Shown here piece after piece: positions 3,113 to 64,000 of a stretch of DNA of 64,000 nucleotides. The stretch covers positions 3,973,001 to 4,037,000 of the forward strand of contig NC_060022.1 of assembly GCF_021134715.1 (NCBI RefSeq), written 5' to 3'. The position numbers and the translations under genes are program-made. Below the pieces are notes generated by a model. It worked only from the letters and a program-made list of their open reading frames with translations. It did not search any database and was not told where the DNA came from. The DNA is from Daphnia pulex (taxonomy: Eukaryota > Arthropoda > Branchiopoda > Diplostraca > Daphniidae). Position 1 is the stretch's first letter. Each line of letters starts with the position of its first letter.

Positions 3113-6100
3113 TCATTCCAAAGCGGCGGCTGGGGCTGCGCTCGGCTCTGCTGGGGCGCATGTCGGATCGTTGATATTGATCATCAACTGTGTTACATGT
3201 CTTGTCGGTGATGGCGGTACAGCTGGCAGATTAACATCTGCCATTACAACATCATTGGGTTGCAGCTCCTCGGTCTTGGTATCGTTACATTCTCCCTCTA
3301 TCATTGGCTCGTCTGGCTCCCGCTGCTGTGAATCGTTATTGACGGTAGCCGGCTCGGTTCCTTCTACGTCAGACCTCTCAATGCCGTGGAGAAGTTTGGA
3401 TTCCAGTAAGTTGATGCAGCGAGTGATGGAAGCGATCGCTTGCCTGCGCGCAACTCGCACATCATCTCGACCCTCCACTTGCACATTGTCCAGTTTCAGT
3501 AACAATCTCGTCAGCCTGTATCAAAATCAAAGAGAAAATCACAATGGTGTTGTAAATAAGCTATGAATTTGAGATGAGTACATTTCATCGAGGAATAGGA
3601 ATCCACGATCGTGACGGTCGCCACGGAATTCTTCGATACGGGGAAGGAGAGTTTCCGTCTCGCGCTGGATCCGCTCGATGAGTTCCAAATCATTGGCCGT
3701 TTGGAGATCGACTGAAGCCGAGGAGCCGGCGGATTTGCCAGAGTCATCCGACAATCGATCATATGGAAGAGGAATGGGCACGGAAGCGTCCCGGACTTCC
3801 TCTTTCTGTTTGGCCGCTTTGTCAGTTGACGGAGTGCTGCTGCTGCTGGTCGTCACCGAAATTGGTATTTGTGTGACTGGCGGAGCTGTTGTCTTTTCCG
3901 CCGCTGCCGCCGCCGGATAGAAAGGCATCGGGATGGCTGTTTTGCTCCGCTTTTCCGCAGCTGAGAATAGACCAGCCCCTTCTTCGGCGACGGAAGGAAG
4001 TAGTGGCTCATCTCGACCCTCCACCATGATGGGAATGTGACGGACATTATTACTACTGCCGCCGCTGCTGCTGCTGCTGCTAGTGGAGTTGACATGATGA
4101 ACGTTTGGATGGCGCCGCCCAAGTCCCGGCGAATCTGTGGCTTGATTTTCACGCTGGCTGTTGATGATAGGATGACCGCCGCCCGCTTGCGGTTGGTTAA
4201 GAGTTGTGGTGAACACGCGTCTAGGACTGCCGGATGAAAGATTATTGTGATCGCCATTGTCAGCGACATGTGGCGCGACTGGAGGAGCAGAACTTGCCCG
4301 GCAAAATCCACTTTTAGGTGACGCCGCTGGACTGCCGGGTGGGAAATCACCGGTGGCACTTCTGGCCGCTTGTTTGGGAATGCGATGTCGAGTGCTGGGC
4401 GAGTCGCTCCTTCCCATTTTATTGTGCTGCTGGGCTGAACCCTGTCAAAATAGCGCAATAATCAAGCGATTAATGATAGACCGTACATGAATCATAGCTC
4501 GGCCAGCGATCGTGAAAGGTCAGCCAAGCCAAATCGATCCAACAACCCAAATGAAATGTTGAATTATTACACCTAGGCGTTAGGAACTCAAATCGTCTTT
4601 GGGTAAAATGACGCAAATACACCGATCGATAGAGGAAATTTTCCCAAGCACGATAACAAGACTCGGAATATTTGAATACCAAATCAGATGATGTTGTTGT
4701 TGGCCTTGTAGCTGTTTCTGCTGCTGGAGCGCCGCCGCCGCCGCCGCTGCTGCCGGCGCTCGAGTTGCTTCCGGCGCTGCGGCCACTGCCACTAGAGGGC
4801 CAACGCTGCCGATTTCCGGCCCGTCCGAACGGCGCCGCTAGATCGGCGTCATCCTCAGTCATCCACGCCGGAATATCGTCTTGATGGAAGGCGTAGTTGG
4901 CATGATGTGGTGGCGGTGGCTGGTGTGTTGGCGGCACGGACCTATCGAACACCCGTCGAGCAGTGTCCGTAAATGGGAATCCCGTCTAAAACACAAACAA
5001 CGTAATGAGAGCTATACTCGGAATTGCTAATTAAAAAATAATACCCAGCATAGAAAAAAGACAACATCACGTCTAGGAATATAATAAATGTGGAACAAAT
5101 CAAATTTCGATCCAAACATGGACCTTGGTTTGACCTCATTGATCGCCGAGTAGTTTGACGTGCCAAAATGGCATTCCCCCAACGCTCTCTTTTTTTTTTC
5201 CGAACCGTATCGGTGGGAAGATCAACCCAAGTGACGGGCGTTTAATTTTAGAGTGGCCACATATATACACACTAGGCACTCTTCAAGAGCTGTTGCCCAG
5301 CACAACTGAAACGCGCACGGGTTATTCTCTTGTGTTATTGTTATTCCCCAAATTGCGCTCGATAGCGCAGCCCTTGAAGGTGATAACTTGAACACATTTT
5401 ACGAGCCCAAGTTTCGCCAGTCGTACCAAGGGCGAAGTTAAAAAAGAAAGAAATTGTTGAGTAATAACGGGGAAAAAAAAAGGGGAAGACGTTTTTTGGG
5501 AGTTTTCGACTGGAACTGATTCAACGCTTTCATGTCTCTCTATTTTTATCTGTTCTGCATCTGTCCCCGTTTCGACCCTGGAAGAGAGAGAGAGAGAAAA
5601 AATGATGCATTCGTCTCGGAACAACTCCTGGGAGTTCCATCCAGTTATGTATTGCAAAAATTCTAGCGACGAATCGTTACGGACGAGATTCCACACAATT
5701 GATGGTCATAACCGTGGCCATTCAAGGAGTACTGCTATATACCGTCGCTACCGAGCGAAACAAAAAAGGCCGAGAGCCCATCGTTAAAGTCATGTCCAAT
5801 TCAGGGGATGCCGAAAAAAGCTATCTTTCCAGTTCATTTCTTACATGTTGGCTGTGTGTGTCCCTATCTACTTGTTCTGTTTTTATCATTCGATCGATCG
5901 GGATAACCAATAAGCCCAGCCAAATCCGTGTGTGCTATTCATGAAACAAAAAAAGGGGATCGTATCGATACGAATAAAATACTAGGGATCTGCTGTGCCA
6001 AATCACAGCAGTTTTTTGTGTGTGTGGAAACATTACTCGCATATCCAGCTGGAACGGTAGACGCAGAACGCGCACAAGGCGGGCTGATTTCCAACAAAAA

Positions 6101-6845: not shown

Positions 6846-7988
6846 GACGTATTTCTTTGCAAGTAGAGACTAGCTCAACGTTCAATGTGTGACTGTTTTA
6901 TATGGATATTTTTCAAAAAAGCTCTTTTCGGGATGATACTACGCGCCGCCTCCTTGGGCTGACTTCAACTCACGAACTGGACGGCCCACATTTTTACCAG
7001 ACTGTTCTACCGTCTTCCATTTCCCCCGCCTTGACGCCGTGTTGCCACATCGCAAACTCTCTGGTCGGTTCTCGTCCTTTCGGGCTGTGAATGTTGCGCA
7101 AGTTTTGGTTGCTTTAACGTCAAACAAATATATGGGACTGTATATAAGATGGAGGAGATGGCAGCACGCGATAAAAACATTGAGCAAATAATTAACGGTG
7201 GGCGCGCCGAAAAACAAAAAATAAAAAGTGTGCAGATGTAATATTGCCTGTTTTTCTCTCATTTGATGCAGCCTTTTTGACCACTTAAGGCTGCGAGTTT
7301 AGCCGAGTCTATTCGTTAGACTCTTGGCGGAATGACGTCAGCTAGTCGATGACATCAACTGGTTAAGGCCCTCCCTTTCCTCAGACTTAGTCGACTCAAA
7401 AGCCAACCGAGGGTATCGATCTAAGGAAACTGTTTTTCTTGGGTACTTTCCAACAGTCATTTGTTACGTGTTTTTGTTCGCTGACATTCATTTTCTTCTT
7501 TTCCGTGTTAGGCCAACGTTATAGGCTACGGTGTGCCCCCAAGATACATGATGACGACACTGGCTGTCTTTAGCCTGATGCTTTCATCGTCCTACACCGG
7601 CGTGAGTTTATTAGTCATGCAGTTCCAACAGTGCCGGTGAATCAGCCTTTTTCTTGTTGGAGAATATAGTAGCCTCTTCGTCGTAAACTGCCAAAACTAC
7701 TCAAAAATTGATTACGTAAGATAGGAGACTTAAACGGTTAAGTGAACTTCCCAACTTACCATATTTGGAGAACACATTTTCAAGGGGTAATAAAACCTGA
7801 TCTCATTGACACGACACACAGTCCTCAAACATGAAAAGTAAACACAATGCGATAATGTAGTTTCCGAAGTTGAAATGATTCTATTTTCTTTGTCTGCTAA
7901 CTTTCTGCGGAAACTATTGAACGACACTGCAACTCTGCATTGTCAAAAAAAGAAAACATAAACACACGTCTGCTAGGCCTAGTAAAAA
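6846..7988. promoter_or_regulatory. Divergent intergenic region, starvin (-) / PTCD1 (+)
   Basis: About 1.1 kb between two divergently transcribed genes, so it should contain both promoters. A perfect CRE/ATF palindrome TGACGTCA sits at 7333-7340. GTATATAAG near 7138-7147 is a TATA-like string. I found no clear run of heat-shock elements, although starvin is stress-linked in flies. Confidence 0.45.
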
Positions 7989-10382
7989 ATGGCCATGCGT
8001 TATTCATTTTTGTTTGGTGTTTCACGAATATTAACTCGCCAGACATATAACGTTTGTCAGAAACATCATGCAACTACAGCTATTTTTCCCGTTCCTTCAA
8101 AAAATAAAACAATTTCCAAGAAATTAGCCATCGAGCATGATGATCCTGACGTGTTCGGTACTCTTTCTTTACGTGAGAATCTCGGAACACAAAAGTTGGA
8201 TTCTATAAAGAATCACGATAATTTTATCGACGAAGGAGATGCAATAGAAGAAAAGTTTCTTAGTTTTGAACCTGCTGACAAAAAGAGTTCTGAACAGTTT
8301 GAATTGGAAATCGAGCAGTTAATAAATGACAGAAACCTGAAAGAAGCTTTATATCGACTAGAAGTTACCATGAAAGAGGACAAAGTCAGACCATCAAGAA
8401 GTATTTTTTCCATGCTAATTGGAGCTTGTGGTAGAGCTGGATATACCAAGAAAGCTTTCAATCTTTTCAATGTGGTAAAAACAGTTATTCCAGTTACCTC
8501 CTAAGGTTCAACCTAAATACTTAGTAATGTATGCATTTTTAAAATTTCTTCTAGATGAAAAAGAGAGGCTGTGTACCAGCAGATAGCCATTATACAGCTC
8601 TATTTAATTCATGTGCAAATTCACCATGGAAAGAGGATGGCTTGCAGAGAGCAACCATGTTGAGACAGCAATTGAAAGACAAAAATGTTATTCTAAATAG
8701 GGCTCAGTATCATGCTATGATTAAAGGTAATTACATTTTGACCCTGAATTGTTTTATATACTAAAATTTTAATGCTTTCTTCCTCTAGCTTTTGGTCACT
8801 GTGGAGAAATAGGAACAACACTTGAGATCATGGACGAAATGGCAACCAATCAGATTACAGTTACAACAGAAAGCTTCAACTTCTTGCTTCAAGCTTGCAT
8901 TTCTTTACCTGAAGAAGGATTTACTCGCGCCATCCTAGTAAAAATGAACTATGATTTCTTATGGGTCACTAACAAAACTTTTGAATATTACTTTAATTCC
9001 AAGATCTGGAGGAGGCTAAGGAATATGAGAGTCACCCCTTCAATCTTTTCTTACAACCTGATGCTTCGTGCCGCTCGTGATTGTGGCGCAAAAGATATGG
9101 ATGGAAAACATCAACCTATTGAATCCATGTTGCTTTTGGAAGAAAAAACTGGCTCTCAAAGCAATAATCCATTCAATCCGGCTGTATTGACTATGTCAGA
9201 GTTAACGACCGTTACAAACCAGCTGACGGTATGTCCAAACTTCCTCGCTGAGAAAATCCAGTCGAACAACGTTATGGGTTTGGCCGGATTAGATCGGACT
9301 GAGAATCGGTATCTAGACCTATATTTTTAAATGTAATCAAGTTCGTAAATTTCAGTGCTACGTTTGTTTCCTAGATTGGCTCTTTTGGGAGGTATTGAAG
9401 GTTTTCTGGCAGAAATGAGCAAGGATCATGTTAAACCCGATATCAAGACGTTTGCCCTTCTTCTCGAGACCATAGCGTCTGATCCATCAGAAGAAAAAGT
9501 AAAATTTAATTGCTACATTAATGAGATCAATATCCTCACTTGTAAATCTTTCCAGAAACTTATGGAACAAATGAAAGCATTTGGAGTTATTCCAGATGTA
9601 ACTTTTTTGAATGTTTTCATTAAAAAACGCCAATTTCGACGAGACAATTCCGGTGCTCAAGTAGGATTGAACCTTACAGCAAATTCCATTTAGCATTTTT
9701 AATTAATAAATTTTGTTTTATGTTAGGAAGTATTAAATTACTTTCAGGAATATCAGCTCTTTCCGAACATAATGACGTTTGGGGTTCTTGCAACGGGATG
9801 TCGTTCTTCTCAAGAAGCCGGTGCGTTGATGAAAGACATGGAAAATGCCGGATTCAGGTATTAACTATATTTGGTCCATGAATTCCGTTTTTCCGCCCAA
9901 CTAACTCTGATCGTTTCCAATGCAATGCAGAGTGAATATCGAAATATTCGGATCATTTTTAAAGAACGCGATTTTTCACAAAAAATGCTATTTTATCATG
10001 GACTTACTGAAACGAGCCACGGAGATGAACTTAACATTAGACGAGAAAGCTATCAAGCTTTTGGATAAATTCAGAAGAGAAACCAAAGAAGCTATTGCAA
10101 AGCATGTAAGTGTGCATTGACTTTCATGGTTGTCCATTTTTTAAATTATTAATTTTTTATTCATATCAGGATCGAGGTTTGGAAGTTTCTAAAATCTACG
10201 GAAACGAATGGTTTAGAGAATCATTTAGAGTGTTTTGCCTTGGATACAAACCTCAAATGGAAAAACTTGAAGTAGCCCTAGAACCTCACCCTTGGCAACA
10301 GTACCGATATCCTCTAGCGAAAAAGGATAAAACCGATCAGACTTCCTATCCATCCAAGAGTGGAAAAAGTGTACAAAATTAA
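7989..10382 (+). CDS. PTCD1: Pentatricopeptide repeat protein 1, mitochondrial (PTCD1)
   Basis: Mitochondrial PPR protein; vertebrate PTCD1 acts on mitochondrial leucine tRNA processing and 16S rRNA/ribosome assembly. Nine exons: 7989-8474, 8555-8726, 8789-8937, 9004-9308, 9375-9498, 9556-9660, 9727-9857, 9931-10105, 10170-10382, giving about 619 aa. The N-terminus is basic with Arg, Ser and Thr, as expected for a matrix signal. Family landmarks in order are [61 protein letters not shown], a [14 protein letters not shown]-type repeat and the C-terminal HPWQQYRYP, all at the spacing seen in animal PTCD1. All introns are 57-80 nt. An AATAAA at 10384-10389 follows the stop almost directly. The ATG at 7989 is preceded by a short AT-rich leader. 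Confidence 0.9.
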
Positions 10383-10636: not shown

Positions 10637-11705
10637 TTACAGACTTCTCTGTAACCAGTGCTTCAGCTTCGCGTACCAGTACGTCGGATAGATGTTCTCG
10701 TAGAGAGCTTGGCACCAATGATAAAGATAATCAGTGCAAAGAAGTTATGGAAAATAAATATTTTAATGAATAAAATTTGAGAATAAATAATTTTTGCTTT
10801 GAAAAAAGGATATAGTAAGCCCCAAGGGGGATGTCCTCCGTTGATATAAAGTACGTACGTAAATCCATCTTTACACTTGCCATCTACGGAATAGTAGTAT
10901 GGCAAAAACGAGTGTAACCTAATAGAGAACAATAAATATAGCAAGTTACACCAAAAGTCAAAACAAAGAAATACCTGAAATAATGTTTTTCATAAAATCT
11001 TATGGCAGCGCTATTCATTGTCAGTACATGTAGGTAAATGGCTTTACAGATTTGATTTTCACTTTGAGTCACATGAGTAAGAAAACTGTCAAGTAATAAA
11101 GATGCAACACCCTGTCTCCTAAAACTTGAGCACACACCCAGGCTCAAAATATAGCCTACAGTGCAGTTTGAATACATTCGTCCATCCAGAATTCCTTTAT
11201 CCTGTAGCAAATGTTTACAAGTAAGAAATCAGAACAAACTTTGTTTTTAAAGGAACCCACCTCCTTGTTAATAGCATTGGATTGCTTTACTTCTGCTATA
11301 AGAAGCCCCACTAGTTTTGATTGGTACACAGCAGCTAATGAATAGAACCTTGGATCAGAAGTTATGTCTCTGTACCAGGCTTCCGGGTACTGAATGGGGA
11401 ACCATTCTTTACAGAGGTCCTTAACCTGTTACCCACAAATTTTCCAATATATTTTATTAGAGCAGAATGTAGGGCAACAGCATATTAAAGTAATTTACCT
11501 GGTCCAGATCGGAAGGACAGAGAAATCTCAACTGTAAGTCTACTGTGCTCGTAAACAAGGGATTCGAGTATTGCGATGTCGCGTCATGGTGATCTCGGTT
11601 ACTATCCTTAGAGCCCGAGTACCTGGAAAGTAGAATGCACTGTTAACTCGACACTTTTTTCGAATATGATAACAATAATCACCGATACCAATTAAAGGAG
11701 GTCAT
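10637..11705 (-). CDS. NAA60: N-alpha-acetyltransferase 60 (Golgi NatF)
   Basis: GNAT-fold acetyltransferase that acetylates N-termini of transmembrane proteins from the cytosolic face of the Golgi. Exons in coding order: 11689-11705, 11499-11622, 11261-11425, 10975-11201, 10814-10918, 10637-10733, about 244 aa against 242 in human. Landmarks are VKDLCKEWFPIQYPEAWYRD, YILSLGVCSSFRRQGVASLL (acetyl-CoA loop RRQGVA), KAIYLHVLTMNSAAIRFYE, LPYYYSVDGKCKDGFTYVLY and INGGHPPWGLLDYLYHW. The C-terminus is aromatic and basic (WYAKLKHWLQRSL), fitting a membrane-binding tail. The last intron, 10734-10813, begins ATATCCTT and ends in AC; only this splice rebuilds the conserved PPW..LDY sequence. The start exon (MTSFN then split W) is inferred from phase. 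Confidence 0.9.
10734..10813 (-). other. NAA60: U12-type AT-AC intron in NAA60
   Basis: On the minus strand the 80-nt intron starts ATATCCTTTT and ends TTTGCAC. TTTTCCATAAC, close to the U12 branch-point consensus TTTTCCTTAAC, sits about 10 nt before the end. Upstream exon phase is 2 and the downstream exon supplies one base, giving GGHPPWGLLDYLYHW, which matches the animal NAA60 pattern. No GT-AG alternative gives this protein; unspliced reading runs into an unrelated tail. Confidence 0.9.
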
Positions 11706-11947: not shown

Positions 11948-14900
11948 TTAAAAGCGTCTTACAGTGACAAAAGTTATCGCAATAATGAAAATGATACCAC
12001 CTGTAAAAACAAAATGAATTTACCGGTTACTGTTATTTATGGGAAAAGGTATGATTGAAGAATGACTGGTCCAGGGGATCGGAAATGGATCGATTTCCTT
12101 TCCCCATTTCCAAGGATACTTACTTCCTGTATTACGTCTAGAAGAGTTCTCGAGATTTTCGCTGGAACCATAAATAACATAATTTAACGCATCCCGCATC
12201 TCATCAACGAGTCTGTAGCGTTGCCTTTCTCTGACTAGAACTGTTTGAGCCACTGCCAAGGGGAAACTGATATACCGTTGTCGATGATTAAAACGTAAGA
12301 CATAATTAAAGGAGGTAATCAATAAAATACTTTCGTATCTGTTGAGTTTTGAATGCTTCGAAGTTATTGTCAGGAATGCTCATCACTGCGCTTGGTGTTA
12401 AGCCCAGTAAAGAGTTGGCGGGTATCAGTCGTAACTGTTCAGGACTCAATCCCCCAATTACCGCTCCAATATTTCGAACCTAGTTTTAAAAATTTGATTA
12501 TTAAACAGCTTGATATGATTCATAGTATGCGATTTTAGTTCATACGATAGCGGCAGTCCAGTTAGAGGGCGCACCAAAAACCCTGAAATCAATCGCTTTG
12601 TTTGCTAAAGATGAAAGCACTTCGTCGGAGCACCGGGGCTGACAGAGTAACATTCCAAGGTACGCGGATGCTTCCAAGTACTTTTTTTTTTCCAATGTGT
12701 GAAAAATAGAATATTTTAAATTAACAGTTTGAGTGCGTATCCAGGGTGACAGTTATTTTGTTTGAATTAATTATTTATACCGCGATGGGGGAAATGCGAT
12801 CAATTAGGGATGCGTTCACGCCACACAGAAGACGGCCAAGAATAAGCAAATCTTGTCCTGTGTAAGTTTCAGGATCTTTCTCCCATTCCAACACTGCTCG
12901 ATTAGATAATACTTTCATCTAAGAAATAATAGTTTTGGTTATACCAATTAATTTTAGTTTCATACACGTTAAAACATTAAATGTAACATTATAGCATTCA
13001 GTTGAATAAACATTAATCAGGTGATAAGGTTCTTTGAACTTTAGGCAACGTTACCAAGATAAACACTATATATCTAGGTTTATTTTGGTTTTTCTATAAT
13101 ACAACCTTTTCCATGGAAATTTTGAAATCTGCTGCTCCTAATGCTGCTAAAACATCGGAGTCGTTCATCCGAAACTTGTCTAATGATTCCATATCAACAC
13201 TGGGTAGAATCCAGCCCAACCGAGTCAACTGATTTTTCGGTATTCGACTTGCGTCACTCTCGTAAACCTTTAAGACAAAATGGTAAACGTTTAAAAAAAT
13301 ATATTTTTTGACATCACATGGTTTCCCTCACTACCTGTAGTACCCGGTTCCACAATGCAGTTCCCTGGTCTGAATTTAGCGGACTGTGACCTAACTCATA
13401 CAAGCAATCTTGAATATCATCGCTGGAGAGAGATTCGAGTTGATCAACCGTGAATCCTGCAGCCGATCCCGAAGGCACGACCGCTTCGCAACTAAGCCTT
13501 CTTCTCTCATTTCCTACTTATCCAGTTAATTATTCATATAATACACAGTACTTAAAGCGCTTATTTATGTTATTTTTTAGAACTTACCAAAAAGTTTCTG
13601 GTTCTGAATTCCAAATATTTGCACTCGATCTCCAGCAAACGTATTGAAGGCAGCTATTGCCCTTTTCTTTGCAACAAGCTCATTACCTTGCCTTAAATCA
13701 TTTTCAAGCTCCCTGGAGCTAAGCTCAAATTGGCAGGCCACCTTTGAAAACCGCCGAATAGAGAAATTTATAAATTATAATTGGACTTTAACGTACTATA
13801 TACTTCGAGATTCTGTCTAAGAATTTGAAGATGAAAAGGTGGTGGAGTATCAGCATTGCAGCTTCGGCATCCTTCGAGGAACAAGTCGTCGCGAATTGAC
13901 TCCAATTCTCTCCATGACAGCGTATTTAAAGAACAGCAGGCCACCGCAACTGTGCCCAGATTCCAGGCATTTGGGTAACTGAATAATAAAACCCATTCAA
14001 AGAGTATACCATAACTCACCAAATTGGAATGCGTTGCGTTATTTCAATGAAATTAGAAAGCTTTGCATTTTATACCCGTAAAACGTTTTAAGAGATTTTC
14101 GTATCGCCGATCTTTGATCTGATGTTGTACAGGGACGTACTGACAGCCCACCGAAGATCTTGACATTTCCCTGCGTGAATTGTGTGTTAATTGAATATAT
14201 TCGACCCAATTATGTAAGCGGCGATTCAAATTTTACTTGAAGTATTGGAAGAGCAATCTCGAATGCTCCAGTTGTCATGTTATTGATCCTCGCTTCTTCC
14301 ATATCAACGACGGCGTTTCCAATTATTGTCATGTCTTCTTCGTTCAATTTCCGACCATTGCCATCTTTAACCTTAAATTGATCGTAATTTTTTTAAAATG
14401 AGCTGAGGCAAAGTATCTAGCTTGTTTGTCACCATGACAGCGATTCCTTGCTGCAATATGTTGATCCGCTTGTATCTCGGAATGGTGTAGTAATCGTTTA
14501 AGTATAGACGACCGAGCGACCGAAGCAACTCAATTTTTTTCATCCCAAGAATGGATTTTAATGCTTTGACGCTATAAATAAATAAGTATTAATCCATCAC
14601 AACACACATGAGTAATTAAATGAGACTAAGCACATCCTCCACAATTAAAAAATGAACATATTTTTTAAATCACACACTCTTTCCTTAATTAAAGCTATAT
14701 AACAAAACCAAGCCTCACCTGAAGCCGGCGATGACTGTGGCGGGATAAATGTCGTAATTTGATAACCAAACGTTTTCTAGAAGACTAACATCGGTGTTTG
14801 CGACATCGTGTCGCTTGTGCCTTTAAACAAATAAACGAGTCTTTCTGTATCATACATTTATTCAATTTAGAGTGCAAATTTAGATATAAAAAGTGATCTT

Positions 14901-17900
14901 TCCATTAAAGGATTACCTGGTAAAACTTCTCAGACGTGTCTGTAAAATCCTGACCTGATTTAACAAATTCGGCATTATAAAAAAAATGAAATTCAGTTAA
15001 TGGGCTCTTCTTACCATCTGTACCGGCGGTCCCTGGGCACTTGAACTCACAGCTTTCATTAAATCTGCAGTGTCCGCTACTGGAATGGAGTTGAGATGTT
15101 CAGGACTGAGATGTGGAACAAGAAGAGGTTGGCGAACTAAATCCGCAATGGAAGTTTTATATGTCCCGTCTAGTTTAGTTGCTGCGTATGTAAGCCTCTA
15201 TAACGAGATCAGCGCCAAGAATTTCCATGAAGTGTAATTTGGTTAAAAATGATCCGATAAATAGAAAAAGATGAATGCCTACGACGATGGAATCTATTGG
15301 CATGTCTGCCGCGAGATCTTGTAATTGATTCAAAGTGTACCGACTCTTCAAGTACGGAACGGGAATCATTGATTTAATAATCTGGGCAGAAGTTGTTGCG
15401 GACGAGAGATCGGCTTGGTCGTCTCTCAACTGGGTGGAACCAAACGGAATTTTAAATTTAATATTACGAACGATTACGAAACGAAAAACTAATTTGTCTT
15501 TTCCTTTATACCTTTGTGTAGATAACCCCCAAATGGGCACCATTCAAGTTATTAGCTACTGCTGACGTCAATTTATTTATTAAAGGTAGGATCTCCTTGG
15601 CTGATAGTGACGTGTAATCGGAAAGATTAGCACCACCCCAATATATTGCGGGGGTGTTGGCCATGCTCCAGCTGCCGTCGCTATTCCTGAATACCCGAGC
15701 AGCGATTGGGCTCAATCGATTGATCTAATTAAGAAAATTATAATTAAAAAATTCACTACGAATTCATTCGTTTGAAAATACTTGGCCACTAGAGAGACTG
15801 TCCGCCAAGGGATCGGTGTCTAACATCTGGAAAATGTTCTTGGTTGTGGAAAGAGACGGAGCGAGATTCATTTTCCAAAATTTCCATGGGGCAACTTTCA
15901 GGTAGGTGGCGTCAAATTGTAGAGGCAGTTCTTCGAAAGTGTTGTTGACGTCCTTTTCTGCCATGCCGGACAAACGAAACTGAAGGAGCGCTGAAGCAGT
16001 CATACGGGGAAGTGACATCCCACGATGGACCAAACTTTCCATTTTGCTTGCCCAAACTGAGAGTAACAACGCGGGAGCTGATTCGTTCTTATTATTTACC
16101 AAAAATTCGGGTAGGAGGTACGGACCCAAATACATCAACCTATGCCATACGTGAATCAACATTAGACACAATGCAACCTCTCGACTTTGTTTGATTTCCA
16201 GAATAAATTGAATAGATACCGATCTGTGATATTTGATAATCGATCGCCGTTGATGCGCTGCCGGAAACTGTTGGTAAACAAACTCTCAACCAGAGCATAA
16301 CCTTGTCCGTCGTTCCAGTTTCTTATCTTTGTTGCAAGATATAATAGAAATATCATAGGTGAATGGGTAAAATTTAGCTATCGAAAATTACCTGAGAAAG
16401 AAATGAAAGTGAATCGTTTAGAATTTGCTGGTTCATCATGGCTAACAAACGAGGACTCATCCGGCGGAATAAAGAAAAGTAAAAACTGATATTGGCCGTC
16501 GACCACTGGCTTATGTTTTCCCCGAGTACTTCCATCATTAGTTTCAATTGAATTCGCTACAAGAAAAGTGTTTCCGTAAAGCTATTAGCTATAAGTAAAA
16601 GTATTTCCAATAAAGTAAATTTTATTTTAAGGCTCGTACCTGCACATTGATGACCGAATCGGATGAGTCTGGGGGAAAGTCGCAGCCAAACTCGGAATAG
16701 TCTTGCGGTAGCCACCAATCCAATCTAATAAATTACGATTCCTTATGATTGAAACAATAAACAATAAATGAAATTCTCAATTACGTACACCGTTCTGGCA
16801 GCACATCGATCGCGGATTCTGATCAGAATGTCTGGCGGCAACGCAGAAATCAAACTAAACCCGTATTTTTTCACCAGCGTATTATTCCAGTTGTCTGGCG
16901 ATGGTAACAACCTGCAGTCGGATTTACTTTAGAATATTATTCAAATATTTTGTAAAACCGTAAATAATTACCTGAGTCCCTGCCGGAGAAATGACTGGAC
17001 ATCTTTATCGCAGCGCTGCAATGAAAGTATAATTTAATTAATTTCTATTTAATTACGTGACGATAAAGGCGATAAAGGGTTCTGTAATGGGAAACATACT
17101 TTGGTGTCAAAGCCGAATCGCCGATCGTTCCACAAGCTCAAGAATAAATCAGGATTTCCGTCATTAATGCGAAAGTTTAAGCTTTCAATAACTTGAGCCG
17201 CCTGACGGTAATCTTTCTTGTGTAAGAGGTTAATAATGATGTCAGAAACTTGTTTATCCGTCAACAACCGACTGAAATCATTCTGAATTGACGAACCGAC
17301 ATCAAGTGTAAATATGTAATAAAGGGCTATTATGTCATATGAGCGCATACCTTCAGCATAGCTATGGTGTTTGAGTAGAGCTGAAGCAAATCCGGAACGG
17401 ATATTTCATCGGGCGGAATCACAGTAAGGAATGCCAGGCGTACAGTTTTGGGAAGCATTCCGAGAATCTCCAGCCACCTTAAATGTTTAATGGACAGGTA
17501 TGAAATTAATAACAGTGCAGAAGAAGATTTTGGAAAATGGATGCATGAATTATACCTTGAAATAGAAGCTGCATTAAATAAAAGTTTCAGAAATAATAAT
17601 ATTCGTAAACCATTAAATTGTGCTTTTAAATGTCTAACCTGTATTATTCGAATTCCAAAATTCTGAGAAATTTTTCTGTGACATAATTTCGCCAAATTGG
17701 CTTCGCTTTTCGCGTTTGGTCTGGTTACGTACAGTCGACTCATACTTCGATCCTTTTGAACCCGAGGAAATAATCTCAGTAAAAACCATAGTCAAACCAT
17801 CAGTTTTCATTGCATCATCTGCTCTAGTGTGTCCAATGGCTGATTGCTGTGTGCAGCTTGGCAACAGCAACTTCACTGTTTATTCCAAATAGGAAAAGGT

Positions 17901-18033
17901 ACAATAAAAAAGTCGATACTTATTGTTTTCAGTTAAAGTTTGCATAACTTTATCTATTTTGACTGTAAAAGCTCATTTTACCCGTGAATAAACAAAACAG
18001 CAGTGTACATCGAGTCCTTGATGGGTAGTACAT
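11948..18033 (-). CDS. Large secreted/type I membrane protein, stereocilin/otoancorin/mesothelin-like (tentative)
   Basis: Twenty-eight small exons, about 1258 aa, on the minus strand. In coding order: 17982-18033, 17639-17875, 17556-17568, 17351-17477, 17100-17282, 16972-17015, 16789-16854 (or from 16912), 16640-16724, 16392-16556, 16220-16326, 15782-16139, 15512-15724, 15283-15429, 15015-15197, 14917-14954, 14719-14820, 14433-14571, 14237-14371, 14076-14170, 13804-13978, 13588-13741, 13335-13513, 13106-13267, 12781-12918, 12546-12680, 12331-12479, 12124-12266, 11948-12000. The start MYYPSRTRCTLLFCLFTV gives a signal peptide; the last exon encodes one hydrophobic segment, GGIIFIIAITFVTVRRF. 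The body is a series of helical repeats of the type LLILGRLLCGV..LIDRISP, LMYLGPYLLPEFLV and IGGLSPEQLRLIPANSL, typical of the superhelical mesothelin/stereocilin/otoancorin proteins, with several N-glycosylation sequons. The family is assigned by pattern only; function is unknown, perhaps extracellular matrix or epithelial adhesion. Confidence 0.72.
17556..17568 (-). other. 13-nt microexon of the mesothelin-like gene
   Basis: The exon is CTTCTATTTCAAG, between AATGCAG and GTATAA. It enters in phase 1 and leaves in phase 2, turning ..NNT-ASIS-RWLEILG into one reading frame between two otherwise phase-incompatible exons. The flanking introns (70 and 78 nt) are normal for this gene. Confidence 0.7.
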
Positions 18034-21000: not shown

Positions 21001-21332
21001 GGACATGTCTCATTAGATCTCAATGACCGACTACAATGTCCTTATTATTGCTTCAGCGTCATTGGATCTCTGCTGCTGTACAACATGAGCCACAGCCATG
21101 AACTGCGCAAGCCTTCCGCGCGTCGCTTTGACGCTTGATGGGAGACTGTGTATAATCTTTCTTCGCGACTCAAAATGGTCGGTAGACATATCTCCAGATT
21201 TTAGTGTTACGGAAATTCCCCTCCGAGTTGGATATCGCTGGAATTGTGCTCTCTCAAATCTGAATCTCTACAAAACGAACGGTGCCATGTCGACCGACTA
21301 TTTTACTTATATCGCATCGCCAGATTTAGTTG
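18034..21332. other. Intergenic, upstream of both mesothelin-like gene and GPCR
   Basis: About 3.3 kb between two divergent genes, so both promoters should lie here. A strong GTAAGT donor on the minus strand at about 18838-18843 could end a non-coding 5' exon of the mesothelin-like gene. A 27-nt near-perfect palindrome is at 20306-20332. No open frame here resembles a known family. Confidence 0.5.
20306..20332. repeat. 27-nt palindrome (13-bp arms, 1-nt centre)
   Basis: CTGACACTCAGTA is followed by a single G and then its exact reverse complement TACTGAGTGTCAG. The flanking bases do not extend the match. It lies about 1 kb upstream of the GPCR start. Confidence 0.9.
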
Positions 21333-21346
21333 ATGGGAATGAATAG
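21098..21346 (+). other. Upstream ORF overlapping the GPCR start
   Basis: An 82-codon ATG-initiated frame (MNCASLPRVAL...) ends at 21346, 14 nt inside the GPCR coding region and in another frame. It has no family resemblance. If the GPCR message starts upstream of 21098, this would be an overlapping uORF that reduces GPCR translation; alternatively a transcription start or splice lies between. Confidence 0.35.
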
Positions 21347-22601
21347 CACTGGTGACATTTCCACCGGAAACAATAACAATCAAGTGATCTTAAATGGTTC
21401 CGATGAGAATTCCAACCGGAACGAATCCAGCACTTTGTCTGCTGCAAACAACATTGACAATCCACTGAACGGCTCGTTCCCCATAGAAATGGATTTGTTC
21501 CGATCGACGTGTCACCTTCTACTGGTGTCGACTGGCGTCCCCCTCAACTTGTTCATCGCCGTCATTATCATGGCCTACAAGAGATTGCACAACAAGCCGC
21601 GCAACGTCCTCTGGCTGGGCGTCACCTTTTTCAACCTGTTGACGTTGTTGACAATCCTGATCGAGTTCGTGGCCTACCACACTCAGAATAATGTCGTCTG
21701 TCTCGTGTTCGTCTCCGTCACCGGTGTGGCTTACACCTCGATCCTCTTCAATCTCCTTTTAGCGCTGATTGATCGCTACGCGGCCATCGTCCATCCCATC
21801 TGGCACCGGCAGAACGTCACCGTCCGCTGGGTCGTCATCGGTCAATCGATGGGTTTCGTCTTGATTGTTGTCGTCATCAAATTCCCGTTCATCGCTCAAT
21901 TGGCACCTCCGTATTGCGGCTATTATCCGGTGCACGCCAAGTTGATCGCCGTGACCAATTTCAGTCTCTTCCTCTCGTGCATTGCGGCCCAGATGACTGT
22001 CTATTTCAAAACTCGTCAGTATTTTAACAGCAGTCGGGGAGACGGGACGACCGAAGCCACCGTCACGTTCGTCCTGTCCGCTATGCAGAGACAACAGCAG
22101 CGTGAAATAGCGGCCAACAACAGCAGCAGCACCCCGAGCAATAACAGCCAACCGTCTCGCCTACCGTCGGCGGAAGCCGTTGTGAACATCAACAGTCCTT
22201 CGGCTAGTAGTGCTGGCGATCGCAATCTAATTGATTCATCATCAGCAGTGACCGTCGGGAGCGGCGGCGGTGGCCAGCAGCAGTTGGTGAGACTCCGGCG
22301 GCACCAGAGCGTCGGGGGCAATCGACAAATGGAAATGGAAGCCACTTGGAGTCTCTTGTCGGGCGTCTTTTCCTTGTTGCTCTTCACCTTTCCAACTTTG
22401 GTGCTGGGCTTCGTCGAATGGGGTTGCCGGATGATGTACGGCGAAGGCCGCTATCCTCCTATTATCGGCATCAGCGTGTTTTACGCCCGTGAATTACTGC
22501 TTGGCCACCTCGTTTACAATCCCGTCATGTACATGATACGTAATCGCGAGTTCTCGTCGACCGTCCGGGAAAAAATTCGCTTTACTCTTCGTTCTCGTTG
22601 A
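21333..22601 (+). CDS. Orphan class A (rhodopsin-like) G protein-coupled receptor
   Basis: Seven-transmembrane receptor of about 422 aa in one exon. The first ATG in frame is 21333, with another two codons later at 21339. The N-terminus is Asn-rich with several N-glycosylation sequons (NST, NGS, NES, NGS). TM1 has GVPLNLF (Asn 1.50). TM2 reads VTFFNLLTLL, with Asn where Asp 2.50 is usual. TM3 has a Cys at its start and ends LLLALIDRYAAIVHP (DRY). TM4 lacks the usual Trp, and TM5 lacks the usual Pro. ECL2 has a Cys (PPYCGYY). ICL3 is long and rich in Gln, Ser and Gly. TM6 has LFTFPTL in place of CWxP, and TM7 has NPVMYMIRN (NPxxY-type). Peptide-receptor-like, but I cannot assign a ligand. The exon is GC-rich against AT-rich flanks. 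Confidence 0.85.
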   Translation: MGMNSTGDISTGNNNNQVILNGSDENSNRNESSTLSAANNIDNPLNGSFPIEMDLFRSTCHLLLVSTGVPLNLFIAVIIMAYKRLHNKPRNVLWLGVTFFNLLTLLTILIEFVAYHTQNNVVCLVFVSVTGVAYTSILFNLLLALIDRYAAIVHPIWHRQNVTVRWVVIGQSMGFVLIVVVIKFPFIAQLAPPYCGYYPVHAKLIAVTNFSLFLSCIAAQMTVYFKTRQYFNSSRGDGTTEATVTFVLSAMQRQQQREIAANNSSSTPSNNSQPSRLPSAEAVVNINSPSASSAGDRNLIDSSSAVTVGSGGGGQQQLVRLRRHQSVGGNRQMEMEATWSLLSGVFSLLLFTFPTLVLGFVEWGCRMMYGEGRYPPIIGISVFYARELLLGHLVYNPVMYMIRNREFSSTVREKIRFTLRSR

Positions 22602-34441: not shown

Positions 34442-36979
34442 ATGAGTGAGAACACAGAAATTCAAATAAAAAAAGAAAAGGATGTAGAAGAACAACAGAT
34501 TAAGGAAGAAAGTGAAATTAATCCTATTCAAGTCAAGAAGGAAAGCGAAATTGATCCTATTCAAATCAAGGAGGAAAGTGCCATTGATCCTATTCAGATC
34601 AAGAAGGAAAGCACAATTGATCCTATTCAAATCAAGAAGGAAAACGAAATTGATCCCAATGAACTACAGATCAAGAAAGAGTATGAACAAAAAATGTTAA
34701 TAATTCAAATTATTACTTACTATTAGTTTTTATTTTTCAGGTATGTTTTAAGCATTCGGGAAAGAGTTCTCTGTACGGATTTGCTATCTGCAAAGGATCG
34801 TGTATTAATCGATGGTGCAGATAACTCTAAATCAAAAGAAAATGATACAGACACAATAGTTAAAGAAGACTTGAAACTAATATCGGTCAAATTGAAGGGT
34901 CAGAACAAAAACCGTCCACCTCCAATGAGATTTGACATCACTGAAAGAATATGTCCTTCATTGGTTGATGTTGCAGAAGATGAAGAGCCTAAAGTATGTC
35001 CATACAACCCAACTTGTCGTTACAGACATGATGTAGTAGAATATATGAAGGAAAGGAAGCCTGACATGTTACCTGGAGGATGTCCAAACTATCAGTCCAG
35101 TGGAAGGTGTTCTAGGGGTATAAGCTGTCTGTTAGGTGATGAACATGTGACACCAGAAGGGAAAAACAAAATTAACCCAAATCCAACCAGTCCTGGTTCT
35201 GAATACTTCAACTTCTTATCCAAGGATCTCCAAAAATCACTCAGAAAGAAAACCTACAACTTCAAGAAAGCAGAGAGTTTTGTAAAAAAGAACAATAAAG
35301 ATCAAGGTAACAGTAACAACAAGGATAAGAAGGAAAAGATTACTGAAGCAAATGGAGAATCCATCAATGTGAATGCTGTGGCATTGAAAGTAGAGCCCAA
35401 TAGTGAGAGTTCAGAAGTTGAAGAACCATCAGCCAAGAAAATTAAAGTAGAAATTACTGGCCCAATTACTAATGAAGATATCATCACATTGAAAACTGAA
35501 GAAAAGAAAAAGGTATTCAATAACATGTTATTGATATAGTTGTTGTTTTAATAAAGGCATTCAAAATAGATTGATTGGAGGGGTAAATTGTACCTGGCTC
35601 CCTTGACCACGGTAGGAAATCTACCGTTTCGAAGGTTGTGCAAAGCTCTGGGAGCTGATATTACTTGTGGTGAGATGGCCATGGCTGAAACACTAGTCGG
35701 AGGAGGGCAACAAGAATGGGCCCTCGTGCGCAAACACAAGTCTGAAGATCTTTTTGGAGTACAGGTAATAGTGGTTTATTTTGTTGTTCTTAACATACAA
35801 TTACCGCTAATTTTTCTTAGATCTGTGGCGCTAATCCATACATTCTAGGAAAATGTAGCCAACTGCTTGAAGAGAACACGGAAATTGATTTCATTGACCT
35901 TAATCTTGGCTGCCCAATCGACATGGTGTATCAAAAGGTACAAGTATTTATTGAGCTTTTCGAAGTGTTTGGTTAATAACTAAATTTTAAATTTAAAAAA
36001 CAAAAAAACAGGGAGCGGGCAGTGGCTTAATGCGTAGGAGGGGACCTTTGGAATCGTCTATCAAGACCATGTCACAATTGCTCAAGATCCCGTTTACTGT
36101 TAAAATGAGAATGGGCGTCTATACAGACCACCCATTTGCTCATCAATTAGTAGAAAAATGTCGGGATTGGGGTGTCTCTATGGTGACTGTACACGGTCGT
36201 TCCCGTGAGCAACGTTACACACGTCTCGCCGACTGGGATTACATAGGGAATTGCGTCAAAGCCGCTGATCCTATGCCCATATTTGGAAACGGAGACATGA
36301 TGTCTTACGAAGACTATGAACGAGTAGTGGATCAGAGTGGGGCTGCAGGTAAAAATTGTTTAGATAAAGATCCCCCTTCATGAAGTGACTCTTGGTATAG
36401 ATTTCAGTTATTATTATGTGTCTTATTCCCGTAGGCGTAATGATCGCTCGTGGGGCTTTAATCAAACCTTGGATTTTCACTGAGATAAAAGAGCGCAGGC
36501 ATTGGGACATCAGCTCTAGCGAACGGTTTCAGTATATGAAAGGTACATTCCTCTGTTATCATTAGTAACGTTTATGTGAAACTTCCGTTGACATTTCCGT
36601 CTTGTATTTATTTAGACTTTTGTAACTATGGCCTCGAACATTGGGGTTCGGATTCCCAGGTAGAGTAACTATTTCCAGCGTAAAAAATGATCCATTAATC
36701 AAGCGCTTGAATTGCTTCACCTAGGGTGTGGAGAGAACGCGCCGGTTCCTTTTAGAGTGGCAGTCATTTGCTCATCGCTATGTTCCCGTTGGTTTACTGG
36801 AAAGGCCGCCGCAAAAAATGAATCTCCGTCCACCCCCTTTCAGAGGCCGTGATGACCTGGAGACGCTACTGGGTTCACCTAACGCAGGAGATTGGGTCCG
36901 TATTTGCGAAATGTTCCTTGGACCAGCACCTGACGGGTTCCAGTTCTTGCCAAAACATAAAGCCAACTCGTGGAAGTGA
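34442..36979 (+). CDS. DUS3L: tRNA-dihydrouridine(47) synthase, DUS3-like
   Basis: FMN-dependent enzyme that reduces uridine 47 in the variable loop of cytoplasmic tRNAs. Exons: 34442-34680, 34741-35512, 35570-35764, 35821-35937, 36012-36348, 36435-36542, 36616-36659, 36725-36979, about 688 aa. The N-terminus holds an 11-residue repeat ([10 protein letters not shown] type). Two CCCH-type zinc-finger segments follow ([12 protein letters not shown] and [17 protein letters not shown]). The catalytic TIM barrel runs from [18 protein letters not shown], with the general-acid Cys in [14 protein letters not shown], then [27 protein letters not shown] and [17 protein letters not shown]. The C-terminal helical domain ends [11 protein letters not shown], as in human DUS3L. 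The start is the first ATG in frame, in an AT-rich leader. Confidence 0.93.
34508..34683 (+). repeat. DUS3L: Coding tandem repeat of 33 nt with SUMO-type motifs
   Basis: About four and a half copies of an 11-codon unit, consensus [11 protein letters not shown], in DUS3L exon 1. Each unit carries psi-K-x-E (VKKE, IKEE or IKKE); two more such motifs precede the array. The copies differ at several synonymous and non-synonymous sites, so the array is not recent. Confidence 0.8.
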
Positions 36980-46700: not shown

Positions 46701-47882
46701 GTTTGTTTTGCAGGTGTGGACCGGCGTCGCGTGACGCGTGGGATGACAATGGGTCAGAAGGTGTCTGGCGGAGTTAAAGGTCTCAGCGGTCGGGAAGGCA
46801 GTCACTCGTCGCTGGGCGGAGCCAAACCATCCAATTCTCGGCATGAAATGCCACACGATTTTACTAAACCTTCGCGGCTGGAAGCTCTGCTCGACATGCC
46901 GCCCACTTCCAGGTATATACACACATGTCAATCGATATACATACTGAAACAACAATGCAATCATTGATTTGAATTTTTAAAACCAAACAACAGGGAAGTG
47001 GAATTGAAGCATGCGTGGAACGCGGACGACCGGTCGCTCAACATCTTTGTCAAAGAGGAGGATCCGTTGACGTTTCATCGGCATCCAGTGGCTCAGAGTA
47101 CGGACTGCATCCGCGGCCGCGTCGGTTTCACGCGCGGTCTCCACGTCTGGGAGCTCAATTGGTCGACACGCCAGCGCGGCACTCACGCCGTCGTCGGTGT
47201 CGCCACCCTCACCGCCCCTCTCCACTCGGTTGGCTACCAGAGTCTGGTGGGCAGCAACGACCAATCGTGGGGCTGGGATCTTGGCCGCAACAAACTCTAC
47301 CACGACTCGAAAAACCAAGCCGGCACCACTTACCCGGCCATCCTCAAGTCGGACGAGAATTTCACCGTCCCAGATTCGTTTTACGGTGAGAGAATTTCGA
47401 TGGCAGTACGCGACCGAGATTTTGTTGTGTGTGCGTGTGTGTGTGTGTTTGTTTGCGATAACCATCAACCACTTTCTCTTTTTTTTTTCTTTTTCTCCTT
47501 GCGAAAAATAGTCGTTTTGGACATGGACGAGGGAACGCTAGCCTTTGTCGTCGATGGACAGTACTTGGGCGTGGCCTTCCGAGGTCTCAAAGGCAAGAAA
47601 CTTTATCCCATCGTCAGCGCCGTCTGGGGGCATTGTGAAATTACCATGAAATACATAGGAGGACTCGATCGTGAGTTTTGACAACTTTTACCTTTTCTCT
47701 TTTTGGATCATTTTCGTAATTTGTTTTTATTTATTTATTTTCCAGCTGAACCATTGACGTTGACAGACCTGTGCAGGCGAGTGGTTCGACAAACGGTGGG
47801 CAAACAGCGACTCGAGAGGCTGGACGAGCTCAACTTACCGCCGGCTCTCAAGAGTTACTTACTCTATCAACACCGGCGATGA
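43779..47882 (+). CDS. gus: Gustavus / SPRY domain-containing SOCS box protein (SPSB1/4 type)
   Basis: Substrate receptor of a Cullin-5/Elongin E3 ligase; in flies Gustavus binds Vasa through its SPRY domain. The conserved core starts MGQKVSGG at 46749 and continues through SPRY ([100 protein letters not shown]) to the SOCS box ([15 protein letters not shown]...[12 protein letters not shown]). Exons: 43779-43789 (inferred), 45661-45793, 45883-46186, 46284-46466, 46714-46912, 46994-47385, 47512-47670, 47746-47882. Exons 2-4 stay open and in phase, so an N-terminal extension of about 210 residues, rich in Ser, Ala and Gln (a 14-Gln run at 46373-46414), is probably translated. The first coding exon, METS or METR, is proposed from a good ATG context and an in-phase GTAAGC donor; if wrong, translation would start at 46743 or 46749. 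Confidence 0.9.
44991..45054. repeat. 64-nt hairpin (inverted repeat) in gustavus intron 1
   Basis: The left arm CACGAAGAAGAAG is exactly complementary to the right arm CTTCTTCTTCGTG. Inside, A-rich and T-rich segments and CGAG/CTCG extend the pairing with a small bulge. The loop contains CCCG/CGGG that could form a competing inner stem. Confidence 0.75.
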
Positions 47883-52281: not shown

Positions 52282-52971
52282 ATGGCAGAGCTTGAAGACA
52301 CTCAGTTCGAGTCAGGGGATTCTGGAGCTTCAGCAACATTTCCCATGCAATGCTCTGCTCTTCGCAAGAACGGTTTCGTCATGTTGAAGGTGATTATATA
52401 ATAATAGAAATTATTTTAATCTTCATTGTACTTAAAGTGAATTTCATTTGAAGGCAAGGCCTTGCAAGATTGTTGAGATGTCCACATCCAAGACTGGCAA
52501 ACATGGCCACGCCAAGGTTCACATGGTTGGTATCGACATTTTCAATGGCAAGAAACTTGAAGATATTTGCCCTTCCACCCACAACATGGATGTCCCTGTT
52601 GTCAAGAGGGAGGATTTCACTGTAATATAAAATTACAACTTTGATTATGTTAGTTTGGAATTAACAAAATTTTTGTTTTAGCTCATTGACATATCTGGTG
52701 ATGGCTTTCTTTCAATGATGAATGACAACGGAGATTTGCGTGAAGATCTCAAGGTTCCAGAAGGAGACTTGGGTAACCAAATCAGGGCTGATTTCGAAAA
52801 TGGTCGCGAACTTCTGGTAAGCTAATTTTACCCTATGCGATGTATTGTTCAATTTGATATTAAGAGTGGATGTATAATCACCTGTTTTTTCTTCTATAGT
52901 GTACCGTTTTGAAAGCCTGCGGCGAAGAGTGTGTGATTGCCGTTAAAGCCAACACAGCTGCCGAAAAGTAA
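52282..52971 (+). CDS. eIF5A: Eukaryotic translation initiation factor 5A
   Basis: Translation elongation/termination factor that relieves ribosome stalling at polyproline and other motifs; it works only when one lysine is converted to hypusine by deoxyhypusine synthase and hydroxylase. Exons: 52282-52389, 52454-52621, 52682-52816, 52900-52971, 160 aa, the usual length. The hypusine loop [20 protein letters not shown] is intact, with the modified Lys in GKHGH. The OB-fold C-terminal domain ([35 protein letters not shown]) is complete. An AATAAA lies at 53012-53017, downstream of the stop. Confidence 0.97.
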
Positions 52972-55230: not shown

Positions 55231-57891
55231 ATGACGATGCCCACCACCCTCGTGAGTGATGGGGAAAAGGCCGAAATCAAAGTCAAGGCAGCTTTCAGCG
55301 GGTATACTTCATGTTTTTTTTTTCAATCTTTGTATGTACTTACCTCATTAGTTATTTTGCAGGAAAATTCTCGTGACTTACATAAACTCTGAGATCCTGT
55401 TGGATGATCTCCAAAATGAGATGCGAGCCATTTGCCAGTTTTCTCCTGATCAAGAGTTTACCATGAAATGGATTGACGAAGAAGGTTGTACAACACATAC
55501 AATCCACACAGTTTTCTTTTACTATGATTTACATCCCTTTAGGTGATCCATGTACTATCTCTTCACAAGTTGAAATTGATGAAGCTATTCGTCTGTATGA
55601 AGTGAACAACGATTCAGAAATCACTATTCATGGTATTTTTTAATTCTACTTGTGTATAAACTTGAAATTTAATTACTCTTTTTAAAATTCAGTTTTCCCT
55701 AGTGTCCCTGTGTCACCAGGGCTTCCATGTTTTGGAGAAGATAAAAGTATTTATCGACGTGGTGCTCGTAGATGGCGGAAACTGTACAGAGTCAATGGAC
55801 ATCTTTTCCAGGCAAAACGTTTCAATCGCGTAAGTTTATCCATGCAACACCATTGATTCCCAGTAATCCTTACTTTCCATTTTTATGACAGAGAGCTTCT
55901 TGCGCTTACTGTCACGACCGTATCTGGGGTCTAGGTCGGCAAGGATTCAAATGCATTCAGTGCAAGCTGCTCATCCACAAAAAGTGCCACAAGCTTATCA
56001 AGATCAGTTGCAACACGGAGCAAGTGGCCGCTCTGAACACTCCATCCCAGGTTCATCTACTGTCAAATAGCGCGCTCAATACCAGTTCAGGGTCCGCAGT
56101 GACCGCTGCTGCTATTCCATCTATAAGCCCTGTTGTTAATGCCGGAGAACCCCCGACAGCGCTGCGACAGAATGGTGATGGTACCGAAGCACCGTCCGCA
56201 CCGCCAATAGTACAACCTATTTTTGAGTCTCACAGTGTGAGTGTTCCGGTTGATGGAAGTCCAGGTACTTTATATTTCCATACAAAACAATTCAGATTTT
56301 TAATTGTATACTTTAAAATATTAGAAGAAGGTGTCGAAGGTGGTGCTGTTCAACGTCCGTATTCGATGGCGGATTTTGAATTGATTCGTGTGATTGGTCG
56401 TGGTTCTTATGCTAAAGTGTTGATGGTTGAATTACGACGAACTCGTCGGGTTTACGCCATGAAAGTAATCAAAAAGGAACTTGTTACCGATGATGAGGTA
56501 TAAGAAAATTGATTCTTTGATTTTATCAACAACTTCTTCTAATTGAACAACTCGACTTTCAGGATATTGACTGGGTTCAAACGGAAAAACATGTCTTTGA
56601 GACGGCATCCAACCATCCTTTCTTGGTTGGCTTGCATTCGTGTTTCCAGACGACGTCACGCCTTTTCTTTGTCATCGAATTCGTACGTGGTGGTGATTTA
56701 ATGTTCCACATGCAGCGCCAAAGGCGACTTCCTGAGGAGCACGCTCGATTCTATTCGGCTGAAATTTCTTTGGCGCTCAATTTCCTACACGAGAAAGGAA
56801 TTATTTACCGTGATCTGAAGCTAGATAACGTCCTACTGGACCATGAAGGTCATATCAAACTCACCGACTACGGAATGTGCAAAGAGGGCATCCGTCCGGG
56901 TGATACCACGTCTACCTTTTGTGGTACGCCCAACTATATCGCTCCTGAAATTCTGCGCGGAGAAGACTACAGTTTCAGGTAATGTTTACAAATTAAACCC
57001 AATAGAATCTGGAACGCTAACTCCCCTGTAGCGAAAATGTCTAACCTTTTTCTTCGTTTTTATCAGTGTGGATTGGTGGGCGCTGGGTGTATTGTTGTAT
57101 GAAATGTTGGCCGGTCGTTCACCTTTCGACATCGTCGGCGCTTCAGAGAATCCTGACCAAAACACTGAAGATTATCTGTTTCACGGTAGAGCTTCATCTT
57201 GTCTTCTTTATTATAATATTTGCTTTGTGGAAACTCGCGAGTCCATTTGATAAAGTTCGCAAGAAAAACGGGGTCTTATCAAGATCGCGTGACCTTTTTC
57301 CACTTGAGAGGATTGTAAATGTGTTGTTTGTAAAACATTGTGTGTTTTTTCTTTTCTTTTCATATTGCAGTCATCCTGGAAAAGACGATTCGCATTCCCA
57401 GGTCGTTATCTGTGAAGGCTTCTTCTGTCCTCAAAGGGTTTCTTAATAAGAATCCAGCTGATCGTTTGGGTTGTCGAAAAGAAACGGGCTTTGTCGATAT
57501 CGTCCATCATCCATTCTTTAAATCAGTCGACTGGGAAATGGTATGAACATCTCTCTCTTTTACACGTTTAATCCACATTCTAGGAACAGATTACTAATCT
57601 TTTTTCATACGTGCACAGTTGGAGAAGAAACAAGTGGCTCCACCTTACGTGCCTCGTCTAGATTCCGACCGTGATCTGGCTCACTTTCCACCCGAGTTCA
57701 CAGACGAACCAGTCCAACTGACACCCGACGATCAGTAAGTGATGGATCGTCTGTCGATTAAGAATCGATTTTTATTTTTGTTTTATTTTTTGTTGCTTTG
57801 CAGGACGGTCATTGAACGCATCGATCAGTCTGAGTTTGAAGGTTTCGAGTACGTCAATCCTTTGCTCATGTCATTGGAAGACTGCGTCTAG
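55231..57891 (+). CDS. aPKC: Atypical protein kinase C (PKC iota/zeta type)
   Basis: Ser/Thr kinase of the Par polarity complex (with Par-6 and Par-3/Bazooka). Exons: 55231-55301, 55363-55484, 55543-55632, 55693-55829, 55892-56264, 56325-56497, 56563-56978, 57067-57185, 57371-57540, 57619-57734, 57804-57891, 624 aa. In order it has a PB1 domain ([15 protein letters not shown] to about residue 95), the pseudosubstrate [14 protein letters not shown], one C1 zinc finger ([29 protein letters not shown]...CHKLIKISC), an Ala/Ser/Pro-rich hinge, and the kinase domain ([33 protein letters not shown] with DYG in place of DFG as usual for aPKC, activation loop [16 protein letters not shown]). The AGC tail has the turn motif QLTPDDQ and [11 protein letters not shown] with Glu at the hydrophobic-motif phosphosite, then SLEDCV. 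Confidence 0.96.
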
Positions 57892-63959: not shown

Positions 63960-64000
63960 GTAGATTATTATTGTTATTAACTGCCCATTAAATCCCACCA

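Follow-up and report, generated by a model that had tools for sequence, protein, structure and literature searches.

The 64,000-nucleotide (nt) stretch of Daphnia pulex DNA analysed here (contig NC_060022.1, positions 3,973,001 to 4,037,000, hereafter the window) was found to carry a gene of 28 phase-consistent exons on its minus strand, whose product is a candidate relative of the vertebrate proteins mesothelin, stereocilin and otoancorin. The gene runs from an ATG at 18033 to a TAA at 11948 (Table 1). Joining the exons by phase from a three-frame translation gave a spliced open reading frame (ORF) of 3,834 nt, encoding 1,277 amino acids (aa). All 27 introns (57–187 nt) have GT-AG borders, and the G+C content is 44.7% in the exons vs. 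28.6% in the introns. No stop codon interrupts the spliced frame, and the gene therefore shows no sign of being a pseudogene.

The model was compared with the output of a spliced-ORF dynamic programme, which used a codon table from the other genes of the window and was also run on 40 dinucleotide shuffles. The minus strand scored 168.0, the plus strand 16.0 and the shuffles 15.0 ± 4.0 (maximum 23.6), with 359.3, 40.7 and 55.1 ± 17.8 (maximum 95.0), respectively, under a laxer setting. With scores so far above the shuffles, and with the exon count and both ends of an earlier sequence-only reading reproduced, it is virtually certain that the gene is real. The gene finder gave a single chain from 18033 to 12306, ending before exons 27 and 28, and 18 of its 26 exons were identical to the manual ones (including the first and the 13-nt exon), the other eight differing. 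That two genes have been fused here, or that some joints are wrong, was considered on account of the weak donors GTTAGA (exon 2) and GTTGTA (exon 23), the 13-nt exon and the 187-nt intron 23. However, the exons placed to the base by the gene finder include both flanks of the weak donors, and the mesothelin precursor match described below spans intron 23, making such an error very unlikely.

A protein search of the whole genome (133,188,837 bases, 13 contigs) with the product gave 23 matches, all inside the same gene (10 of 10 candidate places scored), and no close paralogue was found; the gene is intact and single-copy at the sensitivity used. The sequence-only reading had also taken the host for an arthropod, in agreement with the genome-wide result for PF00379, a cuticle domain of arthropods, for which 331 places were proposed and all 150 of those scored exceeded the cut-off, compared with matches in 0 of 14 control genomes.

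Table 1. Exons of the gene (manual, phase-joined chain; GF, also found by the spliced-ORF gene finder; C, cysteine residue; TM, transmembrane segment; GPI, glycosylphosphatidylinositol).
Exon	Length (nt)	Feature	Position	Strand	Basis
1	52	ATG and first part of hydrophobic signal-peptide-like segment (MYYPSRTRCTLLFCLFT)	17982..18033	-	manual + GF
2	237	remainder of signal-peptide-like segment, linker; weak donor GTTAGA	17639..17875	-	manual + GF
3	13	micro-exon; internal exon of lowest certainty	17556..17568	-	manual + GF
4	127		17351..17477	-	manual + GF
5	183		17100..17282	-	manual + GF
6	44		16972..17015	-	manual + GF
7	123	PDNW...LPPDILIRI stretch	16789..16911	-	manual + GF
8	85		16640..16724	-	manual + GF
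9	165		16392..16556	-	manual + GF
10	107		16220..16326	-	manual
11	358	longest exon	15782..16139	-	manual
12	213	QINRLSPIAARVFRNSDGS...YWGGA (Q encoded at the end of exon 11), paired in alignments with QLDVLYPKARLAFQNMNGS...FLGGA of mesothelin	15512..15724	-	manual + GF, alignments
13	147		15283..15429	-	manual + GF
14	183	residue 624, start of stretch colinear with mesothelin precursor	15015..15197	-	manual, precursor alignment
15	38		14917..14954	-	manual
16	102		14719..14820	-	manual + GF
17	139		14433..14571	-	manual + GF
18	135		14237..14371	-	manual + GF
19	95		14076..14170	-	manual
20	175		13804..13978	-	manual + GF
21	154		13588..13741	-	manual + GF
22	179	NERRRLSC (basic stretch, C967); first part of weak Stereocilin match, residues 983–1052	13335..13513	-	manual, Pfam, alignments
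23	162	remainder of weak Stereocilin match; weak donor GTTGTA	13106..13267	-	manual + GF, Pfam
24	138	C1104, aligned with mesothelin C442	12781..12918	-	manual + GF, alignments
25	135	C1131, aligned with mesothelin C468	12546..12680	-	manual, alignments
26	149	GGLSPEQLRLIP motif	12331..12479	-	manual
27	143	ectodomain end	12124..12266	-	manual
28	53	hydrophobic C-terminus GIIFIIAITFVTVRRF (GPI signal or short TM), then TAA	11948..12000	-	manual

The protein is probably secreted and composed mostly of amphipathic helices, as judged from its sequence. By hydropathy, the N-terminus holds a hydrophobic stretch at residues 9–23 (15-residue mean of 2.05, one Lys inside), and 16 sequons were counted compared with 10.4 ± 2.9 in shuffles, 81 of 2,000 shuffles reaching 16. 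Helical periodicity was computed to be present; an AlphaFold2 model of exon 11 alone (118 whole codons) showed helices at a predicted local distance difference test (pLDDT) score of 41.5, too low to use. For the C-terminus, the sequence-only reading had proposed a TM in place of a GPI signal. The tail has about 13–14 hydrophobic residues followed by RRF, which is short for a typical TM and has a basic end atypical for GPI, and it could be either a short TM or a GPI signal. Alternatively, the protein may be partly or wholly released, either by retention of intron 27 or because so short a tail fails to hold it. Intron 27 (12001–12123, minus strand; 123 nt, the third longest of the 27) would extend the frame by 34 residues, counted from the split codon, before a stop is reached, and exon 28 has no support from the gene finder, which counts against an anchored protein. 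Nevertheless, both the donor (GTAAGT) and the acceptor (TTTTTACAG) of the intron agree well with consensus and are in phase with exon 28, and a soluble form is considered quite improbable.

Against Pfam, the full-length protein matched 0 families, and a phmmer search of the PDB returned two chance matches, mesothelin not being found at E ≤ 10. Pfam hidden Markov model scans covered 28 sequences in total (batches of 1, 3, 10, 4, and 10). Among these, PF06060 (Mesothelin, cut-off 25.8 bits), for which mesothelin as positive control gave 609 bits, had no match at E ≤ 10, and PF21058 (Stereocilin) was matched by three (E 0.18–0.21, 11.1–11.3 bits, residues 983–1052), none reaching its cut-off of 26.6 bits. 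The same residues lie within four other scanned sequences without this match, and other stretches gave other families (DUF7716, E 0.066 and 0.069; MIX, 0.045; DUF1005, 0.077; ALTTAQ, 0.58 and 0.92). When a 111-residue fragment was randomised (one reversed, nine shuffled), PF21058 appeared in 0 of 10, with random families at E 0.16 and 0.10 in two of them; the E-value of the Stereocilin match is therefore no better than noise, and what carries weight is solely which family was matched. Importin/PR65 fragments (n = 5) had no PF21058 match and all matched Arm or HEAT models of the same library. Mesothelin itself has no PF21058 match at E ≤ 10, indicating that these Pfam models are narrow and that missing their cut-offs does not exclude kinship within the superfamily. 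A clear match to an unrelated repeat family, which the sequence-only reading had named as evidence against itself, did not appear: ALTTAQ was the sole repeat family, and none of the 28 sequences matched ARM (PF00514), HEAT, TPR or LRR.

Residues 624–1250 were colinear with the whole mesothelin precursor (498 aligned pairs, 137 of them identical), with p ranging from 9e-5 to 3.5e-2 depending on settings, and this C-terminal half most likely corresponds best to the precursor as a whole. C1104/C1131 aligned with mesothelin C442/C468 in five of five settings, and in three of five with all cysteines masked. C967/C995 aligned with C302/C326 in three of five settings and by MAFFT, whereas the precursor alignment pairs C910 with C302. 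In mesothelin both pairs form disulfides, and its 24 short helices make up a right-handed solenoid (PMC10035497). The similarity of the C-terminal part owes much of its strength to the cysteines, since its score with these masked was reached by 33–195 of 2,000 shuffles.

It is thus likely, and statistically supported although unproven, that the protein is a divergent arthropod member of the mesothelin/stereocilin/otoancorin superfamily. Several results weigh against this: the lack of significant Pfam and PDB matches, both family cut-offs missed, the marginal similarity once cysteines are masked, and the swing of p with settings and competing registers. All of these would suit a lineage-specific secreted alpha-solenoid of separate origin, resembling mesothelin through leucine-rich amphipathic helices and LSPxxL-type turns. 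However, two unrelated helical-repeat proteins of the same supposed architecture class, importin-alpha and PR65, scored at shuffle level against the protein under the same settings; the C442/C468 pair keeps its register in three of five settings when the alignment is blind to cysteine; and Stereocilin, the only trace of a family named beforehand, vanishes on shuffling. A separate origin is therefore judged improbable. The relationship put forward in the sequence-only reading is partly supported, by the alignment statistics and the cysteine register but not by any significant profile or PDB match, and the protein is best filed as a candidate superfamily member outside the Pfam families Mesothelin and Stereocilin.

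Among named proteins, the mesothelin precursor (MPF plus mesothelin, PF06060; 7UED) shares the colinear stretch, the aligned cysteine pair and a hydrophobic C-terminus; the protein differs from it in a tail ending in RRF and in escaping detection by PF06060. Furin sites include an arginine at P4, which the ERRR near the MPF/mesothelin border lacks. Stereocilin is likewise a large helical protein and gave the weak match (E about 0.2), and ARM/HEAT proteins differ in their Pfam matches. Against the 1,277 residues found here, the mesothelin precursor has 622, stereocilin 1,775 and otoancorin, the nearest of the three by length, 1,153 (PMC2628672). The same source proposes a predicted fold and lectin-like binding for the superfamily.

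On balance, the best overall explanation is that of an intact single-copy gene for a secreted helical superfamily relative working as a surface tether. The signal peptide would direct the chain into the secretory pathway, where it would adopt an ARM/HEAT-like superhelical fold containing one or more conserved disulfides (C1104–C1131 among them), the hydrophobic tail would anchor it on the outer cell face, and the solenoid may bind a glycoprotein either on another cell or in an apical extracellular matrix. By analogy with otoancorin and stereocilin, which attach the tectorial membrane to epithelium and hair cells (PMC7886070), the chances of this cell-to-matrix role are about even. The main functional rival is a gonadal one, adhesion in spermatogenesis or fertilisation on testis germ or somatic cells, because tunicate and starfish genes named otoancorin are expressed in testes: that of Botryllus showed a 54-fold increase in fertile animals at one stage, with in situ hybridisation placing it in testes (PMC4523013), and that of the crown-of-thorns starfish was up in testes (PMC9759900). 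Vertebrate members, in contrast, are described in ear and mesothelium (PMC2628672, PMC7886070), and the gonadal role, although a serious alternative, appears less likely than not.

Invertebrate members had been called poorly described in the sequence-only reading; the literature fits this in part, although the tunicate and starfish genes, and a gene of the mussel (a protostome) called stereocilin, already carry the names. No arthropod gene so named was found in titles or abstract openings among the open-licence PubMed Central papers listed, and a review that tabulates selected proteins of apical matrices includes otoancorin and stereocilin but, in the passages covered, no counterpart of either from worm or fly (PMC7886070). 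The present gene model may already be in protein databases under a provisional name. Mesothelin is a drug target, and little is understood of the ligand-binding role and origin of its superfamily. A single-copy arthropod relative, if true, would support an origin before the protostome/deuterostome split, and would make a family studied functionally for the most part in vertebrates accessible in a genetically tractable invertebrate, where knock-outs could be made in an animal that has neither ears nor a tectorial membrane. It would also give a handle on the origin of anchoring proteins most familiar from cancer and hearing in humans. We tentatively suggest that these descend from a bilaterian tether kept by arthropods as one gene, which would attach cells, perhaps ciliated mechanosensory, cuticle-forming or germ cells, to an apical matrix.

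The neighbouring gene on the downstream side is also on the minus strand (10750–11642) and encodes a GNAT acetyltransferase (PF00583, E 7e-12) which we take to resemble NAA60; human NAA60 lies in 16p13.3. Human MSLN has been placed in 16p13.3 as well (PMC10035497), which is a loose synteny lead only. Long Ser/Gly/Pro-rich open frames of 301 and 171 aa at 3542–4985 (minus strand) had no Pfam match at E 0.01. On the plus strand lie one or more exons of a 3-beta-hydroxysteroid dehydrogenase-like enzyme (358–1194), a PPR-like protein with matches just under Pfam cut-offs (7986–9330), a single-exon 423-codon frame for a rhodopsin-type G-protein-coupled receptor (21330–22601; PF00001, E 2e-9) with a long third inner loop by eye, a DUS3L-type zinc finger (34727–35539), a SPRY protein (46968–47681) and eIF5A (52436–52627). 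Apparent atypical protein kinase C exons follow at 55352–56982 (C1, 44.9 bits; PB1, 19.5 bits, below cut-off); the kinase-domain start is below cut-off in its exon, and the next frame, 56521–56982, reads as kinase by eye. About 5 kb after these exons lies a SKI/SnoN gene (62418–63980, plus strand; Ski_Sno_DHD and SMAD-binding domain). Human PRKCZ and SKI adjoin, and the two genes here may be an old gene pair.
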